From a virus, in IMG/VR virus record IMGVR_UViG_3300033388_002426, positions 1 through 21,203 of that record: a DNA stretch of 21,203 nucleotides; one strand, 5' to 3'. Below the pieces are notes generated by a model. That model did no database searches, was not told the DNA's origin, and saw nothing but the letters and a program-made list of their open reading frames with translations. Positions 1,244 through 17,151 of the stretch are shown here, in pieces (position 1 is the first letter of the stretch; each line of letters begins with the position of its first letter). Both the position numbers and the translations under genes were made by a program.

Positions 1244-2623
1244 TTATCCTAGCAAGTGCGGCGAACCGGTTGACAGTACGAACGAGCCGCGCCACAGTCT
1301 CAACTGACTGCTGCTGTCGAAGTACACGAAGTCCGTCCCGTTCACCGCTGCCACCGTAGCGCCGCCCCCTCCTACGGGTCCTGCGACCACTGGACCGTTC
1401 TGCGTCCACCCGCCCGCCCCTGCTGACCGCAGGATGCGGAAGTCTTGACTTGTGGCGTCGTAGTACACAATATCGGTGAGGTTGAGCACCGCTGCTGTGA
1501 TCGAGTTGGTGCCCGCCACTGCAGGCAGCACGAATCCCGCCCCCACTGCCGTCCACCCGCCTGTTGAGAGGTCCGCCTTGTACCGGCGCATCTCCCCGTT
1601 GCTTATGTCACTGAACGCGACGTCGGTACTCGACAGGGATGTCAGGGCCAAGCGAGCGCCGGTTCCTGCGATAGCTGTGCCCGAGCCGCCCACTAAAGTC
1701 GTGACGCCCGTGCCCAGCACTACGGTGTACAGCCGCAGCTCCTGGTTGCCTGCGTCGAACATGGCGAACGATGTCTCGCTCAAGGACGCCAGCGCGGGGG
1801 CCTCGCCCACACCATAACCGGCGACCGCGTTGCCTACGCCAACGAGCGCGAAGTCTGTGCCGTCAAAGGAGTACACGCGCAGCTCCTGGTTGTTTGAGTC
1901 GAGCATGACGACCGTGGACTCATTCATGGCGCAGATAGCGACCCGAGTACCCCCCACGCTTGCGATGCTCAGGGAGTTACCCACCTGCGTGATGGTGTCC
2001 GTGCTGTAGTCGATGTCGAACGCTGTCAGGGTGTCGGTGCTGTTAGCTCTGAGTACCGCCAAACGGGTGGACGACATGGCCGCGACTGCGTTGGAAGCTG
2101 CAGCGGTAGGCCCCGTGTCCGTGAACTCCTCAGTGAGGCCGGTCCATGTCGGTCGCAGTGCAACCTGGCTTATAAGCGGGACGCTAAACTCCAGCGCGAA
2201 GTTCGTGCCGTCGTATATGAGCGTCACCTGTCCGTCGATCATACCGGGCAGCACGTCCTCGCTGCCTCCGTACTCCTGGACGATGTTCTGCGCACCTAGT
2301 CCGTCGACGTCGACGGTGGCGCTGGAGCCGTTCACGTTGCCCGGTACGAATCGCACGCGCATCCCGGCAAAGTATCCAGGGGGAGCAACACGTGCCCCGC
2401 CGGTGGACAGGACGTACGCGCTGGACGTGCCGCTGTCCGTGTAGAAGTCACCGCCGGCCGCATAGTACGCGACGGCTTTGTGCGACTGCTGTCTGTCGGC
2501 GTCGTCCAGGATCTGCCCGGAGCCCTCGATCAGGTTGTTGTTCTCAAGTTTAAACCCGTTCAGGTCGACGTCCTCGCACTGTGGTGGGTTGTTGTTTGTC
2601 CAGTTCTTTACTGTGGCCGCCAT
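1244..2623 (-). CDS. Tail fiber protein with C-terminal beta-propeller repeats
   Basis: 459 residues. The N-terminal part (about 1-150) resembles attachment regions of phage fibers, with a GMRVRFVPGN segment at 87-96 and a TLIYDGTNFALEF segment near 134-146. From residue 182 onward the protein consists of regular repeats starting near 182, 232, 280, 329, 379 and 426, a period of 47-50 residues. Each carries a pattern like (L/M)SxTxVAxxDxxxQELRxY followed by a Gly-rich turn. The last repeat is short, and residues about 161-181 resemble its missing end, as in a closed beta-propeller. The probable role is host receptor binding at the tail tip. The start ATG has AGGAG about 10 bases upstream, and the gene follows the gp48-like baseplate gene by 2 bases. 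No fiber-assembly chaperone gene follows within the window. Confidence 0.85.
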   Translation of the reverse strand: MAATVKNWTNNNPPQCEDVDLNGFKLENNNLIEGSGQILDDADRQQSHKAVAYYAAGGDFYTDSGTSSAYVLSTGGARVAPPGYFAGMRVRFVPGNVNGSSATVDVDGLGAQNIVQEYGGSEDVLPGMIDGQVTLIYDGTNFALEFSVPLISQVALRPTWTGLTEEFTDTGPTAAASNAVAAMSSTRLAVLRANSTDTLTAFDIDYSTDTITQVGNSLSIASVGGTRVAICAMNESTVVMLDSNNQELRVYSFDGTDFALVGVGNAVAGYGVGEAPALASLSETSFAMFDAGNQELRLYTVVLGTGVTTLVGGSGTAIAGTGARLALTSLSSTDVAFSDISNGEMRRYKADLSTGGWTAVGAGFVLPAVAGTNSITAAVLNLTDIVYYDATSQDFRILRSAGAGGWTQNGPVVAGPVGGGGATVAAVNGTDFVYFDSSSQLRLWRGSFVLSTGSPHLLG

Positions 2624-3204: not shown

Positions 3205-4754
3205 GGGAACGCCACCAGGCCGAGAGTGGCAATTTGGCCAGAGTTCACTGTGATGTCACCGGACGGGGCGCTCAGCGTAAACGATGAAAGCTCGGCGCCG
3301 TTCGACGGGTCGACTGTGTTCTGGATCGCTGCGCGGTACGCATCCTCCTCGATCGAGGCACCCACCTGGGTCTGCTCGTCAAAGAACTGCTGCAGGTTGG
3401 CTGTCACCGCGTCACGCATCGACTGGTTGTCGGGGGTGATCGCTGAGAACGTGAAGTCCGTCGGCACTGCGACAGGTGCGGCCACGATGTTGTTGTCGTA
3501 GGACGTTGTCGCTGGTCGTATGGTGTCTATAGCTGCCCGGGTGTCGTCGACTTCCGAGGTGCTCGGGATCGGGTCCGCGTCGTTGTCGCGCATAAAGAAC
3601 GTGCGCACCTGGCCCAGGGCGATGGTGGCTGCAGCGGTGACGGTGCCTGTCGCGGGTGTGACCGGCGAGCCTGACACCAGGTAGTAAAACGTCACCGAGT
3701 CGGCCACGATGATCGGAGCGTTGTCGACGTTGTACTCGGCCTGGTCTGCGCCGTTGACCGATGTGCGGTTCCCGTCCTCGAATCCGTGCGGCGTTGCGGT
3801 CACGGCTTTGGCTATGGTGTCGATCCTGGTCAGCGTGGTGATCGCAATGGTGCCGACCTCTGTGCCCGCCTCCTCGACGAATACCCGCGTCACGCCGGCG
3901 ACCTCTTTGGCCTTTGCGACTATGTCCGCGACGTTAAAGTGTGCGACCGGGTCCCGTATTTTCTCCAGGTATCGGTCCTTGTACGCGTCCGTCCCCTCGG
4001 CATCTGTTCCACCGCCGACTGCGCCCTGTGTGACGTAGAACGTGTCGTCCACGTTGACGATCGGCGACTGGAGTGTCGCAGGTGCGTCCGCGTCCAGGTT
4101 CGTGTTGGCCCCGAAGGATGTACTCTGCACCTCGACCAGGGCCGTGGTGTAGTCCGCCTGGGGGGCTCCCGTGGCCGGAGTGGTCGGGGTCCCTTCGACC
4201 GTGTACTGGAAGGTATCCGGGCCGGTGACTGTGATCTCTGCCGCTGCGACGTTGTACTCGGGCTCTGTCGCCCCTGAAATTGCCACAGGGATGGCGCTGG
4301 CCAGGTTGTGATCGGATGCTGTGGTTGCTGTCGCTGTCGAGCCTGAGCGGGTCAACGATGTGATGACCAGGTTCTGCGCAGTGACGCTCGCACCAGGGGC
4401 CTGGACCTCGTAGTCGACCCCGTTCGCAGACAGCAGCGCGCCCGGAGCCACCACTCCGCCGACGGTTCCGCCGGCCACCATAGGGCCGCCCGCAGGTGTC
4501 GAGGTGTTTGGCGGTCCGATGTAGATGTTGCCCCAGATGGGCGCTGTCTCATCGTCTGCCGTGTCAGGAAAAAGGCGCAGCTCTGTGCGATTTAAGTCCC
4601 GATAAAAGTCGAAAATGCGGCGGCCTACGCCAGCAAGTAGCGAGCGCAGCCAGTGCACTGCCAGGTATGGGTTCGAGTCCGGTGCCTCTCTGGCCACGTC
4701 GGCCTTGAGGCGCTCCTCGACTTGCGCTGCTGTATCTGGTGTCCCGACTGCCAT
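3201..4754 (-). CDS. Baseplate J family protein (Mu gp47-like) with two inserted modules
   Basis: 517 residues, longer than typical members. The core fits baseplate wedge J proteins: an N-terminal helical region, the FGANTNLDADAPATL segment near 214-228, GGGTDAEGTDAYKDRYLEKI near 247-266, and a C-terminal helical and beta domain. Two similar inserts account for the extra length. Residues about 129-206 begin VITSLTR and end near ATGAPQADYTTALV. Residues about 302-378 begin AITTLTR and end near ATGTVTAAATIAL. Both contain a GA.. EYNV core and a PxTPATG turn. The second insert interrupts a core strand between VGTI and GQVRTFFMRD. The role is peripheral baseplate wedge in tail contraction. The start ATG at 4754 lies 2 bases after the gp46-like stop. 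Confidence 0.92.
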   Translation of the reverse strand: MAVGTPDTAAQVEERLKADVAREAPDSNPYLAVHWLRSLLAGVGRRIFDFYRDLNRTELRLFPDTADDETAPIWGNIYIGPPNTSTPAGGPMVAGGTVGGVVAPGALLSANGVDYEVQAPGASVTAQNLVITSLTRSGSTATATTASDHNLASAIPVAISGATEPEYNVAAAEITVTGPDTFQYTVEGTPTTPATGAPQADYTTALVEVQSTSFGANTNLDADAPATLQSPIVNVDDTFYVTQGAVGGGTDAEGTDAYKDRYLEKIRDPVAHFNVADIVAKAKEVAGVTRVFVEEAGTEVGTIAITTLTRIDTIAKAVTATPHGFEDGNRTSVNGADQAEYNVDNAPIIVADSVTFYYLVSGSPVTPATGTVTAAATIALGQVRTFFMRDNDADPIPSTSEVDDTRAAIDTIRPATTSYDNNIVAAPVAVPTDFTFSAITPDNQSMRDAVTANLQQFFDEQTQVGASIEEDAYRAAIQNTVDPSNGAELSSFTLSAPSGDITVNSGQIATLGLVAFP

Positions 4755-12083: not shown

Positions 12084-12320
12084 TTATGCCTCCTGGTTAG
12101 AACTTGCGGCGGCCGGTTTGCTGGCCTCCTTTTTGGGTTTAGGTGTAGGCAGGGAGACGGACTGATCGAGCTCCGCCTCCTTGAACCTGTTGCGCCAGTA
12201 GCGGTCGACAGGAACCCCGTCTCGGCAGGTGACGTCGACAGTGGTGCCGGCTTTCACTTCGAGGGCCTTTGCCAGGGCCTCGTTGTTTATGGTTACTTTT
12301 AAAACTGTTGTTTTGCTCAT
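12084..12320 (-). CDS. DUF2635-like small tail protein (Mu gp38-like)
   Basis: 78 residues. The central part reads VKAGTTVDVTCRDGVPVDRYWRNRF with an acidic follow-up (KEAELDQSV), close to the Gly, Val-Pro and tWRRR spacing of DUF2635. In Mu-like phages this tiny gene sits directly upstream of the sheath gene, as here. The C-terminus (PTPKPKKEASKPAAASSNQEA) is a low-complexity Pro/Lys/Ala tail. The start ATG at 12320 is in an ATGA overlap with the gp37-like gene. The function is not established. Confidence 0.7.
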   Translation of the reverse strand: MSKTTVLKVTINNEALAKALEVKAGTTVDVTCRDGVPVDRYWRNRFKEAELDQSVSLPTPKPKKEASKPAAASSNQEA

Positions 12321-13450
12321 TGTTCCGGCTCCGCATCTGCGTCCAGGTTCACGTTGGCGCTCAGCTCCCCTGTCCCCAGGCTCGTGGTGAGCGCGTAGCT
12401 TACGTCCCGCATGGCGACACTGTCGTCGATCACTGCGGCGTCCACTCCGGTCAGTTGTACGATCTGTTCGAACGTGACCTCGTGAACGTATAGGGCCTTA
12501 TTCTTGCCGTTTTCGTCCGAATATGCAAACACCCCGTGACCTGTGAACGTGGCCCTGTAGTCTGAGTACGTGAACCCTGTCGGGAACTTCGCCCGCATAA
12601 TGGCGTGGAATATGGCCGGGACGTACTCCTCCTCGACTTTATCGCGTGCCTGGTAGCCGGTCAGCTGGTCCGTGGTGTTCTGGATTATGTACAACGAGAA
12701 CGGCTGGATCAGCGTGGTGTTGAATGAATACTGGCCGGAGGCGGACATGTCTGCGTCGGTCAGTTCGTCGCGCGACTTGCTGGTGATTACGTCCCCCAGC
12801 TGCACGACGAGCGTGTCCTGGCCGATGTTTCGCTTCGTGAACACGTCCTGCAGGTACTGCGTAATGTCTAGCACCCCCGCGATGCGGATCGCTGTCTGCA
12901 CCAGGGCGTTGTTGAGTACCGGGTCGACCGTGTAGGCCTCCGGGATCGTGTAGTCGAAAGTCGTGGCGGCGACGTTGCTCACCGGGAACAACCCGTTGAA
13001 CAGGCTGCCGTTCGCATCGTTCACCAGGGGGGTGCCTGAGATAGTGGTCGGGCCGCTGTCCGTGACTGCGATCACGAGCTTGTTGCGGTTCGGCACACCG
13101 ATCAGCTGGAACGTGCCAGTGAACTCGGCCTCGTTGGCCCCGCTGATGGTCAGCGTCTTGCCGCCCTGGGCTTTGTCTCGTTCTGACAGAGTGAAGTCGT
13201 GCTCCTGGTCCGTCTCGAATGTTGCCGAGCTGCCGGTGCGCAAAAAGCTGGCCACGTTGATCTGGACCGGGGCCTCCACGCCGTCGATGACTACGTTCTG
13301 GCCGGCGACCAGGTTGTGTGCTGCGCTGGTGGTCACTGAGACCAGGGTCCCTGCGACTGTCGCGCCGGTGATATTGACCGAATCGCTGAACCCGGACGTG
13401 TACCGGGGCAGAACCTTCGACAGCTGGTCGATGACGTCCTGTGCTTTCAC
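12317..13450 (-). CDS. Mu gp37-like tail protein with nested beta-module insertion
   Basis: 377 residues. The first 25 residues (MKAQDVIDQLSKVLPRYTSG) and the region from about 177 onward (NNALVQTAIRIAGVLDITQY) form the likely gp37/tail-terminator-like core. Between them, about 36-176, lies an insert built of two related modules. One half (36-65, 144-176) has TSAAHNLVAGQNVVIDGV and NGLFPVSNVAATTFDYTIP. Inside it, 66-143 repeats the same plan (TDQEHDF.., KTLTISGANEAEFTGTFQLI). Position between the HK97 gp10-like and DUF2635-like genes supports a neck/tail-terminator role. The start is GTG at 13450, sharing one base with the upstream TAG, behind GAGGAGG. Confidence 0.78.
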   Translation of the reverse strand: MKAQDVIDQLSKVLPRYTSGFSDSVNITGATVAGTLVSVTTSAAHNLVAGQNVVIDGVEAPVQINVASFLRTGSSATFETDQEHDFTLSERDKAQGGKTLTISGANEAEFTGTFQLIGVPNRNKLVIAVTDSGPTTISGTPLVNDANGSLFNGLFPVSNVAATTFDYTIPEAYTVDPVLNNALVQTAIRIAGVLDITQYLQDVFTKRNIGQDTLVVQLGDVITSKSRDELTDADMSASGQYSFNTTLIQPFSLYIIQNTTDQLTGYQARDKVEEEYVPAIFHAIMRAKFPTGFTYSDYRATFTGHGVFAYSDENGKNKALYVHEVTFEQIVQLTGVDAAVIDDSVAMRDVSYALTTSLGTGELSANVNLDADAEPEQ

Positions 13451-14701: not shown

Positions 14702-15385
14702 CTATTCGCTCACATGTTCCGGGTGGTCTGTGACACTAGCATACTCTAACACGTCGAGCATGTAGTCCCGCATATCAATCAGAGGGGCGTGGGCGACAGG
14801 TGTCGCTGCCCAGGAGTACGCAGGGTCGGTGGCGTCCATCGTTGCGATAAACGCCTGGAAGCCCTCGAACCCGTAGTCGATAAAGCCCTTTTCTAGCGCC
14901 CCGGTGGCCGCCGCGAAAGGTATGCCCATGTTGACGATGTCCCTCTCGCTCATCTCGGGGTTAGCTATCGTCAGCCCGACTAAAACGTCGGCTTTGATTT
15001 TGTCGACCAGGTTCTCCCTGGCTCGCCGTTTTTCTTTCACCACTTCCACGAGGTCGAGGTATGCGTACACCTTGTCGAATATGCGGATCGCAGGCCCTTC
15101 GCTGCCGTCGTTCTTGATGTAGGTCAGGTCCTTTGTCTTACGCTGGACCATGCCCCCGCCGTCAACCAGCCACCAGGTGCGCACGATTCCGTACACCACC
15201 CCGGCCGGGTCTGTCAGGGTCTTGAAAGTTGGCCGCCCGTCCTCTCGCATGGACGCGTGCTTTGCCAGGGTCGCGTCGGCTTTTAGGTGCGTTTTAAAAT
15301 TTAAGTCACAGACCTGGGTCGCGTCGTGCTTTTCTGACACCAGGCTGCGGATCTTGTAGTTCTCAATATCCCACTCGCTAGACAT
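14702..15385 (-). CDS. Unrecognised 227-residue protein between fiber and neck genes
   Basis: No family was recognised. Visible features are a beta-rich first half with a GVVYGIVRTWWLVDGGGMVQ segment near 62-81, a basic helix (VKEKRRARENLVDKIKADVL) near 114-133 and a C-terminal helix ending in a His/Glu tail. There is no signal peptide and no membrane span. The start ATG at 15385 overlaps the fiber gene stop by 8 bases. The gene is co-oriented with structural genes and is most likely a virion or assembly protein. An assembly chaperone for the upstream fiber is one possible role; this is a guess from position. Confidence 0.7.
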   Translation of the reverse strand: MSSEWDIENYKIRSLVSEKHDATQVCDLNFKTHLKADATLAKHASMREDGRPTFKTLTDPAGVVYGIVRTWWLVDGGGMVQRKTKDLTYIKNDGSEGPAIRIFDKVYAYLDLVEVVKEKRRARENLVDKIKADVLVGLTIANPEMSERDIVNMGIPFAAATGALEKGFIDYGFEGFQAFIATMDATDPAYSWAATPVAHAPLIDMRDYMLDVLEYASVTDHPEHVSE

Positions 15386-16301
15386 TTGCTTTGTGCCCCA
15401 CTTTTAGGCCGCCCCGGTAGCAGGCCGCCTCGTTGCCCGCACTAGAGCAGGCGATCTCGATGTATATGCTGTAGTCCCCTGCAGTCAGCGACTGCAAAGC
15501 GAACCCACTGCACGGGTGTCTCTGGTTTGTCCCGGAGTTAATCGTCGCCGGCGGCGGGTTCAGGTTCGGGAGATCTGCACCGCCACCCCCTGAGTCCTTT
15601 GGCTCCTGCACATGCTCGCACAGCGTCACAGGGGCGCTCGGCGGGTTGGTGTCCAGGATGACGTTCGCCTCAAAGTCTGACGTCGCCGAGTTGTATGACC
15701 AGACGTAGAACCAGTCCAGCGGGTAGTCGCCGTCCTCTGTCACGGTAAAGTCGAGCTGCAGGTACGTGGCGAACGCGGTCGTGTTGTTTATTGCGCCAGC
15801 AGTGTCCGAGATCATCTGCAAGTACGGGAGCACCTTGCCCAGGAGCACGTTGCCGCTGTCGTCGGTGTACATGCTTTTTTGATCTGCGACTGTTCCGTCG
15901 TTGCGAGTGTTCTGCGGGTACGCACTGGCCAGCAGGTTGCCCGCAGTGTCGATCGCCCACCGGACGATGCCGCCAAGTGTCACCAGGAAGGTCCCGACGC
16001 TAATGGCCGCCGAATTATTGGCGCCGTCTGTGATGAACGCATGACGGTGCAGGGGGTCCGCGTTGGATCCGTCGCGCAAGGTTGTGAGGTCCACCCGCTC
16101 GGCAGGCAAGAACCACACCCGGCTCGCGGTCTCGTCGATGTTGTCGGCATTCAGGACGACGGTGCCCGTCTGGCCGTTTACGCTGAGCACGTCGTCTGTG
16201 TTGTCTAGTTTGAACCAGTTGCCCGCCAGGGTGTCATCCCACACGGCCAGGTCTGTGGCTCTCCAGTTCGTCTCGCCGTTCAGGTTCGTGCTGCCGTCCA
16301 C
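15378..16301 (-). CDS. C-terminal part of capsid-side fiber protein
   Basis: 307 residues if read from GTG at 16301. It contains the fiber motif DDVLSVNGQTGTVVLNADNI near 37-56, a HRHAFITD turn near 86-93, and a C-terminal beta-rich domain with TYLQLDFTVTEDGDYPLDWF and four Cys. The real coding frame extends upstream as LTLNQGEAYIVS, with no ATG before the in-frame TAA near 16425, so independent initiation is doubtful. Joined to the upstream ORF by a +1 shift near 16338, the protein would be about 590 residues. Either a recoding event or an indel in the sequence explains the split. The stop overlaps the 227-residue gene. Confidence 0.7.
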   Translation of the reverse strand: MDGSTNLNGETNWRATDLAVWDDTLAGNWFKLDNTDDVLSVNGQTGTVVLNADNIDETASRVWFLPAERVDLTTLRDGSNADPLHRHAFITDGANNSAAISVGTFLVTLGGIVRWAIDTAGNLLASAYPQNTRNDGTVADQKSMYTDDSGNVLLGKVLPYLQMISDTAGAINNTTAFATYLQLDFTVTEDGDYPLDWFYVWSYNSATSDFEANVILDTNPPSAPVTLCEHVQEPKDSGGGGADLPNLNPPPATINSGTNQRHPCSGFALQSLTAGDYSIYIEIACSSAGNEAACYRGGLKVGHKANV

Positions 16302-17151
16302 GCTGACGATGTACGCCTCGCCCTGGTTGAGCGTAAGTGCCGACCTTGTTTGCTGTTTGTTCTGCAGTGGCCAGGGTCGACTGGATCGTGTCCAGGTTGG
16401 CCGGTGCGGTCACTGTTAAAAAATCGGTTTTTACTTTATCCGCTGCAGGCATGGCGCCGTCAGTGGTGGGGGTGGCCAGGTTGACCTGGATCTCCTGGTT
16501 CGCCAGGTTGAGTGTGTCCTGGGTTGTGCTGTCCGCGTTCAGTGTGACGGCGTCATGGCGGGCCGCAGTGTTGGCTGCGATCTCTCCGCGTTCGATAGCG
16601 GTCAGGATCTTGGCGGTGGCCGTCTCGGCCATGTTGCCCATGCTGAACGCATCGCCCTCCACATTTGTCGGATCATATACCGCCTTGAGCATGTCGCCAG
16701 GAACGCCGAGTCCCGTGTCGACCCACAAGGGGGAGCTGTTCACATACCAGAAAGTCTGCGTGCTAAGCACCGCAGCAGTGGATCCGATCGCCTGGTCGGC
16801 CGCCGGGAACTGTGTCTCCAGGTCGGCGGGGTCAGCAAATACCCCTAAAAAACGGGCGGCAGCACCACTCGCACAGCATTCTCTCATGTTCACTTTGCCC
16901 TCCTGGTTCGGGCAGAAAGCCCATAGACCTGCCTCACCTTCGCAAACATCGAAGGGGACAGATGGCCATCGGCGGACGATGTTGTACGCGTCGTGGTCCG
17001 TTGCTGGTTGTGCGGCCTGTTTGGCCAGGTAGACATCCGCCGCGCCGATATTATCGACGACCACTGCCGTGCCCACTGCCACGCCGGTGAGCGCGTACAG
17101 GTCGATCCATTCCCCCTCGGGGACGGTGATATTCGGGAGGGTGTCTGCCAT
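16234..17151 (-). CDS. N-terminal part of capsid-side fiber protein, apparently frameshifted
   Basis: 305 residues from ATG at 17151. The N-terminus (ITVPEGEWIDLYALTGVAVG) looks like a virion-anchor domain. It is followed by a LSTQTFWYVNSSPLWVDTG module near 129-147, YDPTNVEGDAFSMGNM near 159-174 and APANLDTIQSTLATAEQT near 249-266, all of the type seen in trimeric phage fibers. The last 35 or so residues (from Thr272) turn Arg/Gly/Gln-rich and look like out-of-frame translation of the second half's reading frame. Four Cys lie between 70 and 93. The gene lies between the capsid and neck genes, which suggests a head or neck fiber rather than a tail fiber. Confidence 0.72.
   Translation of the reverse strand: MADTLPNITVPEGEWIDLYALTGVAVGTAVVVDNIGAADVYLAKQAAQPATDHDAYNIVRRWPSVPFDVCEGEAGLWAFCPNQEGKVNMRECCASGAAARFLGVFADPADLETQFPAADQAIGSTAAVLSTQTFWYVNSSPLWVDTGLGVPGDMLKAVYDPTNVEGDAFSMGNMAETATAKILTAIERGEIAANTAARHDAVTLNADSTTQDTLNLANQEIQVNLATPTTDGAMPAADKVKTDFLTVTAPANLDTIQSTLATAEQTANKVGTYAQPGRGVHRQRGRQHEPERRDELESHRPGRVG

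Follow-up and report, generated by a model that had tools for sequence, protein, structure and literature searches.

A small all-beta module of ~77 residues occurs twice in the baseplate J protein of a Mu-like phage and twice more, one copy nested within the other, in its gp37-like protein. Sequence comparison indicates that the two J copies (M1 and M2) are homologous modules inserted into a conserved J core, and that the module recurs as an insertion domain in virion proteins that are not related to one another, i.e. is a widespread plug-in.

Results

The window (the whole stretch of DNA analysed here) is a 21,203-base IMG/VR virus record (IMGVR_UViG_3300033388_002426) that carries, on its minus strand, a Mu-like contractile tail cluster comprising capsid genes, the gp37-like gene, sheath, tape measure, hub, equivalents of gp45 to gp48 and a fibre, those genes without a family match being named from their position. 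The J gene (Table 1) lies between gp46- and gp48-like genes; its product scores 86.1 bits against Baseplate_J (PF04865), above the cut-off of 21.1, the same family is matched by 10/10 of its relatives, and its predicted structure matches Mu gp47 in Foldseek at 5.5e-9. Two further observations concern the window. The 459-aa protein in the tail-fibre position (1244-2623, minus strand) has repeated motifs and no Pfam or PHROGs match. In the interval 15378-17151 (minus strand) two ORFs in different frames, 16237-17151 and 15378-16301, overlap; the end of the former looks out-of-frame, the region upstream of the start of the latter reads on sensibly (ALTLNQGEAYIVSVDGSTNLNGETNW), and the two may be a single gene broken by a frameshift, either real or an assembly error. 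No match to ORF 15378-16301 was found in nine related records.

Table 1. Positions of the J and gp37-like genes and of their modules in the window.
Feature	Coordinates	Strand	Evidence
Baseplate J / gp47-like wedge gene, 517 aa	3201-4754	-	Pfam Baseplate_J 3.1e-24, Foldseek, neighbours
M1 module, J residues ~129-206 (alignment gap 129-203 = 4146-4370)	4137-4370	-	hhalign, gaps, profile, model
M2 module, J residues ~302-378 (alignment gap 307-386)	3621-3851	-	hhalign, gaps, profile, model
gp37-like gene, 377 aa, upstream of sheath gene	12317-13450	-	Foldseek neck/terminator matches; gene order
Outer terminator module, first half (profile positions 2-35)	13277-13378	-	profile E 5.2e-6
Inner terminator module, inside outer one	13022-13264	-	profile E 2.9e-10
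Outer terminator module, second half (profile positions 35-63)	12929-13015	-	profile E 1.6e-5

A first-pass annotation of the window had proposed that one module occurs twice in the J protein, and that both copies interrupt its conserved core. The motifs quoted in support of this are present, in M1 (J residues 129-206) as ITSLTR...DHNL...GATEPEYNV...DTFQYTVEGTPTTPATG and in M2 (302-378) as ITTLTR...PHGF...GADQAEYNV...VTFYYLVSGSPVTPATG, and comparison of the two family alignments with hhalign bears out the repeat (E 6e-29 over 76 columns, 42% identity, probability 99.8); as controls, M1 or M2 was compared 12 times with pieces of the J or terminator core, and the best E was 0.001, over 24 columns. 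A profile of the module, with most of its sequences drawn from other phages, recovers both copies, at 4152-4367 (1.4e-27) and 3624-3851 (5.6e-25), and the coordinates originally proposed for them prove correct to within a few residues.

Comparison with J proteins lacking the inserts, the check suggested at that stage, provided the module boundaries and located both modules within the core. Neither module is present in five compact J proteins of 346-371 aa, encoded by phages of Bordetella, Pseudomonas, Acetobacter, Microcystis and Silvanigrella, whose flanks still align, with gap 129-203 in 5/5 and gap 307-386 in 4/5, the fifth being ragged at the second site. Similarly, the J family profile aligns to Mu gp47 (9ki1) as three collinear blocks that skip query residues 123-201 and 306-381, opposite which Mu gp47 has 4 residues and none, respectively. 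Change counts on a tree cannot alone separate gain from loss, which leaves room for a reading in which the M1 and M2 segments are ancestral J core strands that were lost elsewhere. Nevertheless, we reject this reading, which we regard as extremely improbable, on the alignments of Mu gp47 and the compact J proteins, which represent varied hosts and run through both sites; the presence of the same module in unrelated proteins, and the absence of M2 from 15 J proteins that carry M1, likewise stand against it.

Across 42 J proteins, both modules are present in 22, M1 only in 15 and neither in 5, counts that are not frequencies because module-bearing J proteins were recruited using the module as query; one J protein without M2 reads ...TRVFVQEITPAVGQVTIYFMRDN across the empty site. 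Module-bearing J proteins form one group in a tree of the core (100/99), a topology consistent with a single gain of M1. The two-module J proteins are not one clade in this tree (AU p 0.002), which implies that M2 was gained or lost repeatedly, or moved by recombination; since the M2 copies form one group in the module tree (99/88), loss or transfer is favoured over independent gain, and M2 may have passed between J lineages by recombination. The M2 copies of two loci (L097:5602-7164 and L020:9950-11557) are sisters in the module tree (99/89) whilst their J cores are far apart, a possible trace of recombination that spans only ~80 columns. One truncated contig (L023), labelled J1 in the module tree, was excluded from the core tree and from the AU test.

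The earlier suggestion that the repeats could mark a mobile domain holds in part. Reuse in unrelated proteins, and the existence of J proteins with 0, 1 and 2 copies, speak for it; recent movement is contradicted, as within the window clade M1 and M2 form separate lineages (100/99), and copies from the same phage are no more alike than copies from different phages (identity 0.446 vs 0.434), giving no sign of recent copying. By these comparisons M1 and M2 are old copies, each with its own line of descent, and no concerted evolution was seen in the window family. The surface-exposed decoration that had also been suggested stays a conjecture for modules that are predicted to sit at the tips of hairpins. 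Derivation of M2 as a duplicate of M1 is unsupported, the deep forks of the module tree being without resolution.

Four copies in two unrelated virion proteins had been claimed for the window, and one profile finds all four. In the gp37-like protein they form the nested pair that had been described, an outer module being split by an inner one (Table 1). Aligned with hhalign, the inner module matches M1 at 4e-9 and M2 at 1.2e-7, and the outer module, its halves joined, matches them at 1.4e-10 and 6.4e-12, respectively; the direct match of inner to outer module is weak (2e-4). The nested arrangement is kept in 12/12 family members of the gp37-like protein, and three distant relatives have the same nested look, as judged by eye.

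Foldseek searches with the gp37-like model gave top matches that are mostly neck or terminator proteins (812, Milano, A-1(L), R4C, lambda gpU and T4 gp15), with prob mostly 0.8-1.0 but every E at or above 1.3e-3, and with a model core of low confidence. Downstream of the gene lie a 78-aa ORF and then the sheath gene, an order that matches gp37-gp38-gp39 of Mu, in which gp37 is the tail terminator (PMC11915804). Fold and gene order together make it very probable that the gp37-like protein is this phage's tail terminator, which would place copies of the module at both ends of the tail. Mu gp47 (BW2) and gp37, encoded in the same gene order (PMC11915804), are the counterparts of the two proteins that host the module; unlike the window J protein, Mu gp47 is without both J modules.

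A search for the module in other phage structural proteins, also proposed in the first-pass annotation, uncovered many carriers. Querying IMG/VR with a consensus gave at least 459 matching stretches, and the 79 new loci that were kept include, among the matches listed, J proteins, a head-closure Hc3 protein, a protein ending in an S74 endosialidase chaperone and a SPRY protein; many of the carriers at these loci are of unknown type, and some have two to four modules. PHROG 9998 is the commonest family match of the module-bearing proteins, mainly via the module region. Against phage records, tblastn of single modules gave almost no matches, and the consensus gave weak matches in cyanophage, Klebsiella, Yersinia and other structural proteins. 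At one locus (L034:3349-6612) two adjoining ORFs bear the module, the first with up to four matches and the second with an Hc3 head-closure region and one copy, and at another (L096:3808-6615) up to four module matches share a 936-aa protein with a strongly scoring SPRY domain (2.6e-20). The modules of J and of the terminator also recur on a 41-kb contig (JAGLON010000050.1) in a Candidatus Zixiibacteriota MAG, either a prophage or a co-binned phage, and the sole host hint seen; no further carriers were found in 132 other genomes of that phylum.

Promiscuous Ig-like domains in phage structural proteins, reportedly described by Fraser et al. in 2006 (cited in PMC10684548), resemble the module in being small beta-domains that are shuffled among unrelated virion proteins and whose function is unclear. 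The module differs from them in belonging to another sequence family and in being inserted in hairpins and in itself; neither J module matched any of the Ig families, and one of 16 diverse modules matches Ig_3 at 3.8e-4. A literature search returned no account of this domain in phages, nor any that links the FCCH domain considered below with phages in this way.

Both modules are kept in all J proteins of the window clade that span both sites (19/19), and M1 has a length of 74-77 residues in 19/19 of those that span M1. Mean identity is 62% for M1, 55% for M2 and 58-62% for the J core, with dN/dS between 0.02 and 0.25 where measurable, many pairs being saturated; dN of the window M2 lies above that of M1 in most pairs compared. 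This difference in dN, along with J proteins of zero, one and two copies, might be expected if the modules were nearly neutral passengers, harmless hairpin insertions that persist. The low dN/dS and near-constant length, and the retention of both J copies throughout the window clade and of the nested pair in every terminator of its family, make this improbable. Since the evolutionary rate of the modules is about as low as that of the J core, a role in structural contacts fits better than arms-race host recognition; typical host-range adhesins, by comparison, evolve fast.

M1 and M2 are predicted to be all-beta, with local pLDDT of about 85-91 and about 75-89, respectively, within models whose whole-chain confidence is low (pTM 0.36 for J and 0.50 for the gp37-like protein), and the predicted strands of the J core continue into the modules (E125-137/E196-211 for M1, E299-311/E370-377 for M2). 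Foldseek of the J model lists phage J proteins first and then E1 ubiquitin-activating enzymes (6dc6, 7sol and 4p22, 5e-4 to 9e-4, prob 1.00, with low TM-scores and matched residues not printed), and J also matches, at 2.1e-5, a viral library entry named 'Ubiquitin-activating enzyme E1, FCCH domain containing protein'. The nearest non-phage fold to the module by Foldseek is E1_FCCH (PF16190), the first catalytic cysteine half-domain of ubiquitin E1. The best score against this family, obtained using a hand-made consensus, is 21.7 bits vs a cut-off of 29.5, which is exceeded in 0/11 records; Pfam searches with 16 diverse modules matched E1_FCCH most often (3/16), in every case below the curated cut-off. 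The FCCH name reflects fold, not function, and neither an adenylation domain nor a ubiquitin system was found in the window. Module profiles detected nothing above noise among PDB sequences, so that the link to known folds is structural only; matches to PD-L1, a nanobody and lyxose isomerase were set aside as chance-level.

Foldseek also lists the endosialidases 3gvj, 4hiz and 1v0e for both the J and the gp37-like models, more weakly than E1, and one of the 16 diverse modules matches End_beta_barrel (PF12195) at a sub-threshold 5.5e-4, the window's own modules giving no match. The models thus suggest E1 FCCH and, more weakly, the endosialidase glycan-binding beta-barrel as the nearest folds, both below the thresholds for membership. 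The endosialidase barrel (K1F, endoNF, phi92) is similarly a small beta-barrel within a phage tail protein, but belongs to an enzyme tailspike and binds polysialic acid, being in K1F one of three sites for this glycan (PMC12632334), whereas the module is hosted by wedge and terminator proteins. Such likeness, and the occurrence of modules in S74 chaperone-ended and SPRY proteins, would fit glycan-binding domains that make many weak contacts with capsule, LPS or another surface sugar, as the K1F barrel does. We consider this possible, if rather doubtful: the endosialidase likeness is sub-threshold and confined to a single member, the terminator copies, at the head end, are poorly sited for host contact, and M1, conserved like the J core, lacks the rapid divergence that host-specific binding should bring.

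Discussion

The best explanation of these data as a whole, which we hold with slightly better than even confidence, is that an FCCH-like barrel has been inserted at J hairpins and in the terminator, and there braces the tail by lateral contacts. The module would be an all-beta, beta-barrel-like domain of ~75-80 residues, nearest in fold to FCCH, inserted into two beta-hairpins of the J wedge and, as the nested pair, near the N-terminus of the terminator. Its N and C ends would lie on adjacent strands that prolong the host hairpin, such that the module could be gained or lost without disturbing the host fold. The predicted structure suggests that the modules sit at the hairpin tips and project outward and, given that the Mu virion contains 12 J proteins and 6 terminators (PMC11915804), ~36 of them per virion would be arrayed around baseplate and neck. 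Conserved lateral contacts (wedge-wedge, wedge-fibre and neck-sheath) would brace the machine, rather than pick the host; on the slow evolution of the sequences and their position, we favour such bracing or docking between baseplate and neck neighbours over host recognition. A bolder proposal, which we think unlikely, is that a single FCCH-like beta-barrel serves tailed phages as a general plug-in at hairpin tips and even within itself, kept at both tail ends because its copies act together, e.g. by binding one common partner such as sheath, fibre or a surface glycan.

Among related J proteins the insertion sites occur empty, half-filled and filled; together with the nesting of the module within itself, this illustrates clearly how a domain has entered the contractile tail core. 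This one domain joins the scattered PHROGs 9998, 5838, 701, 19630 and 529, and may account for the 'ubiquitin E1 FCCH' labels found on phage proteins. The J hairpins at which a whole domain is tolerated are now marked, and can serve as a guide for annotation and for engineering the tails of laboratory phages.
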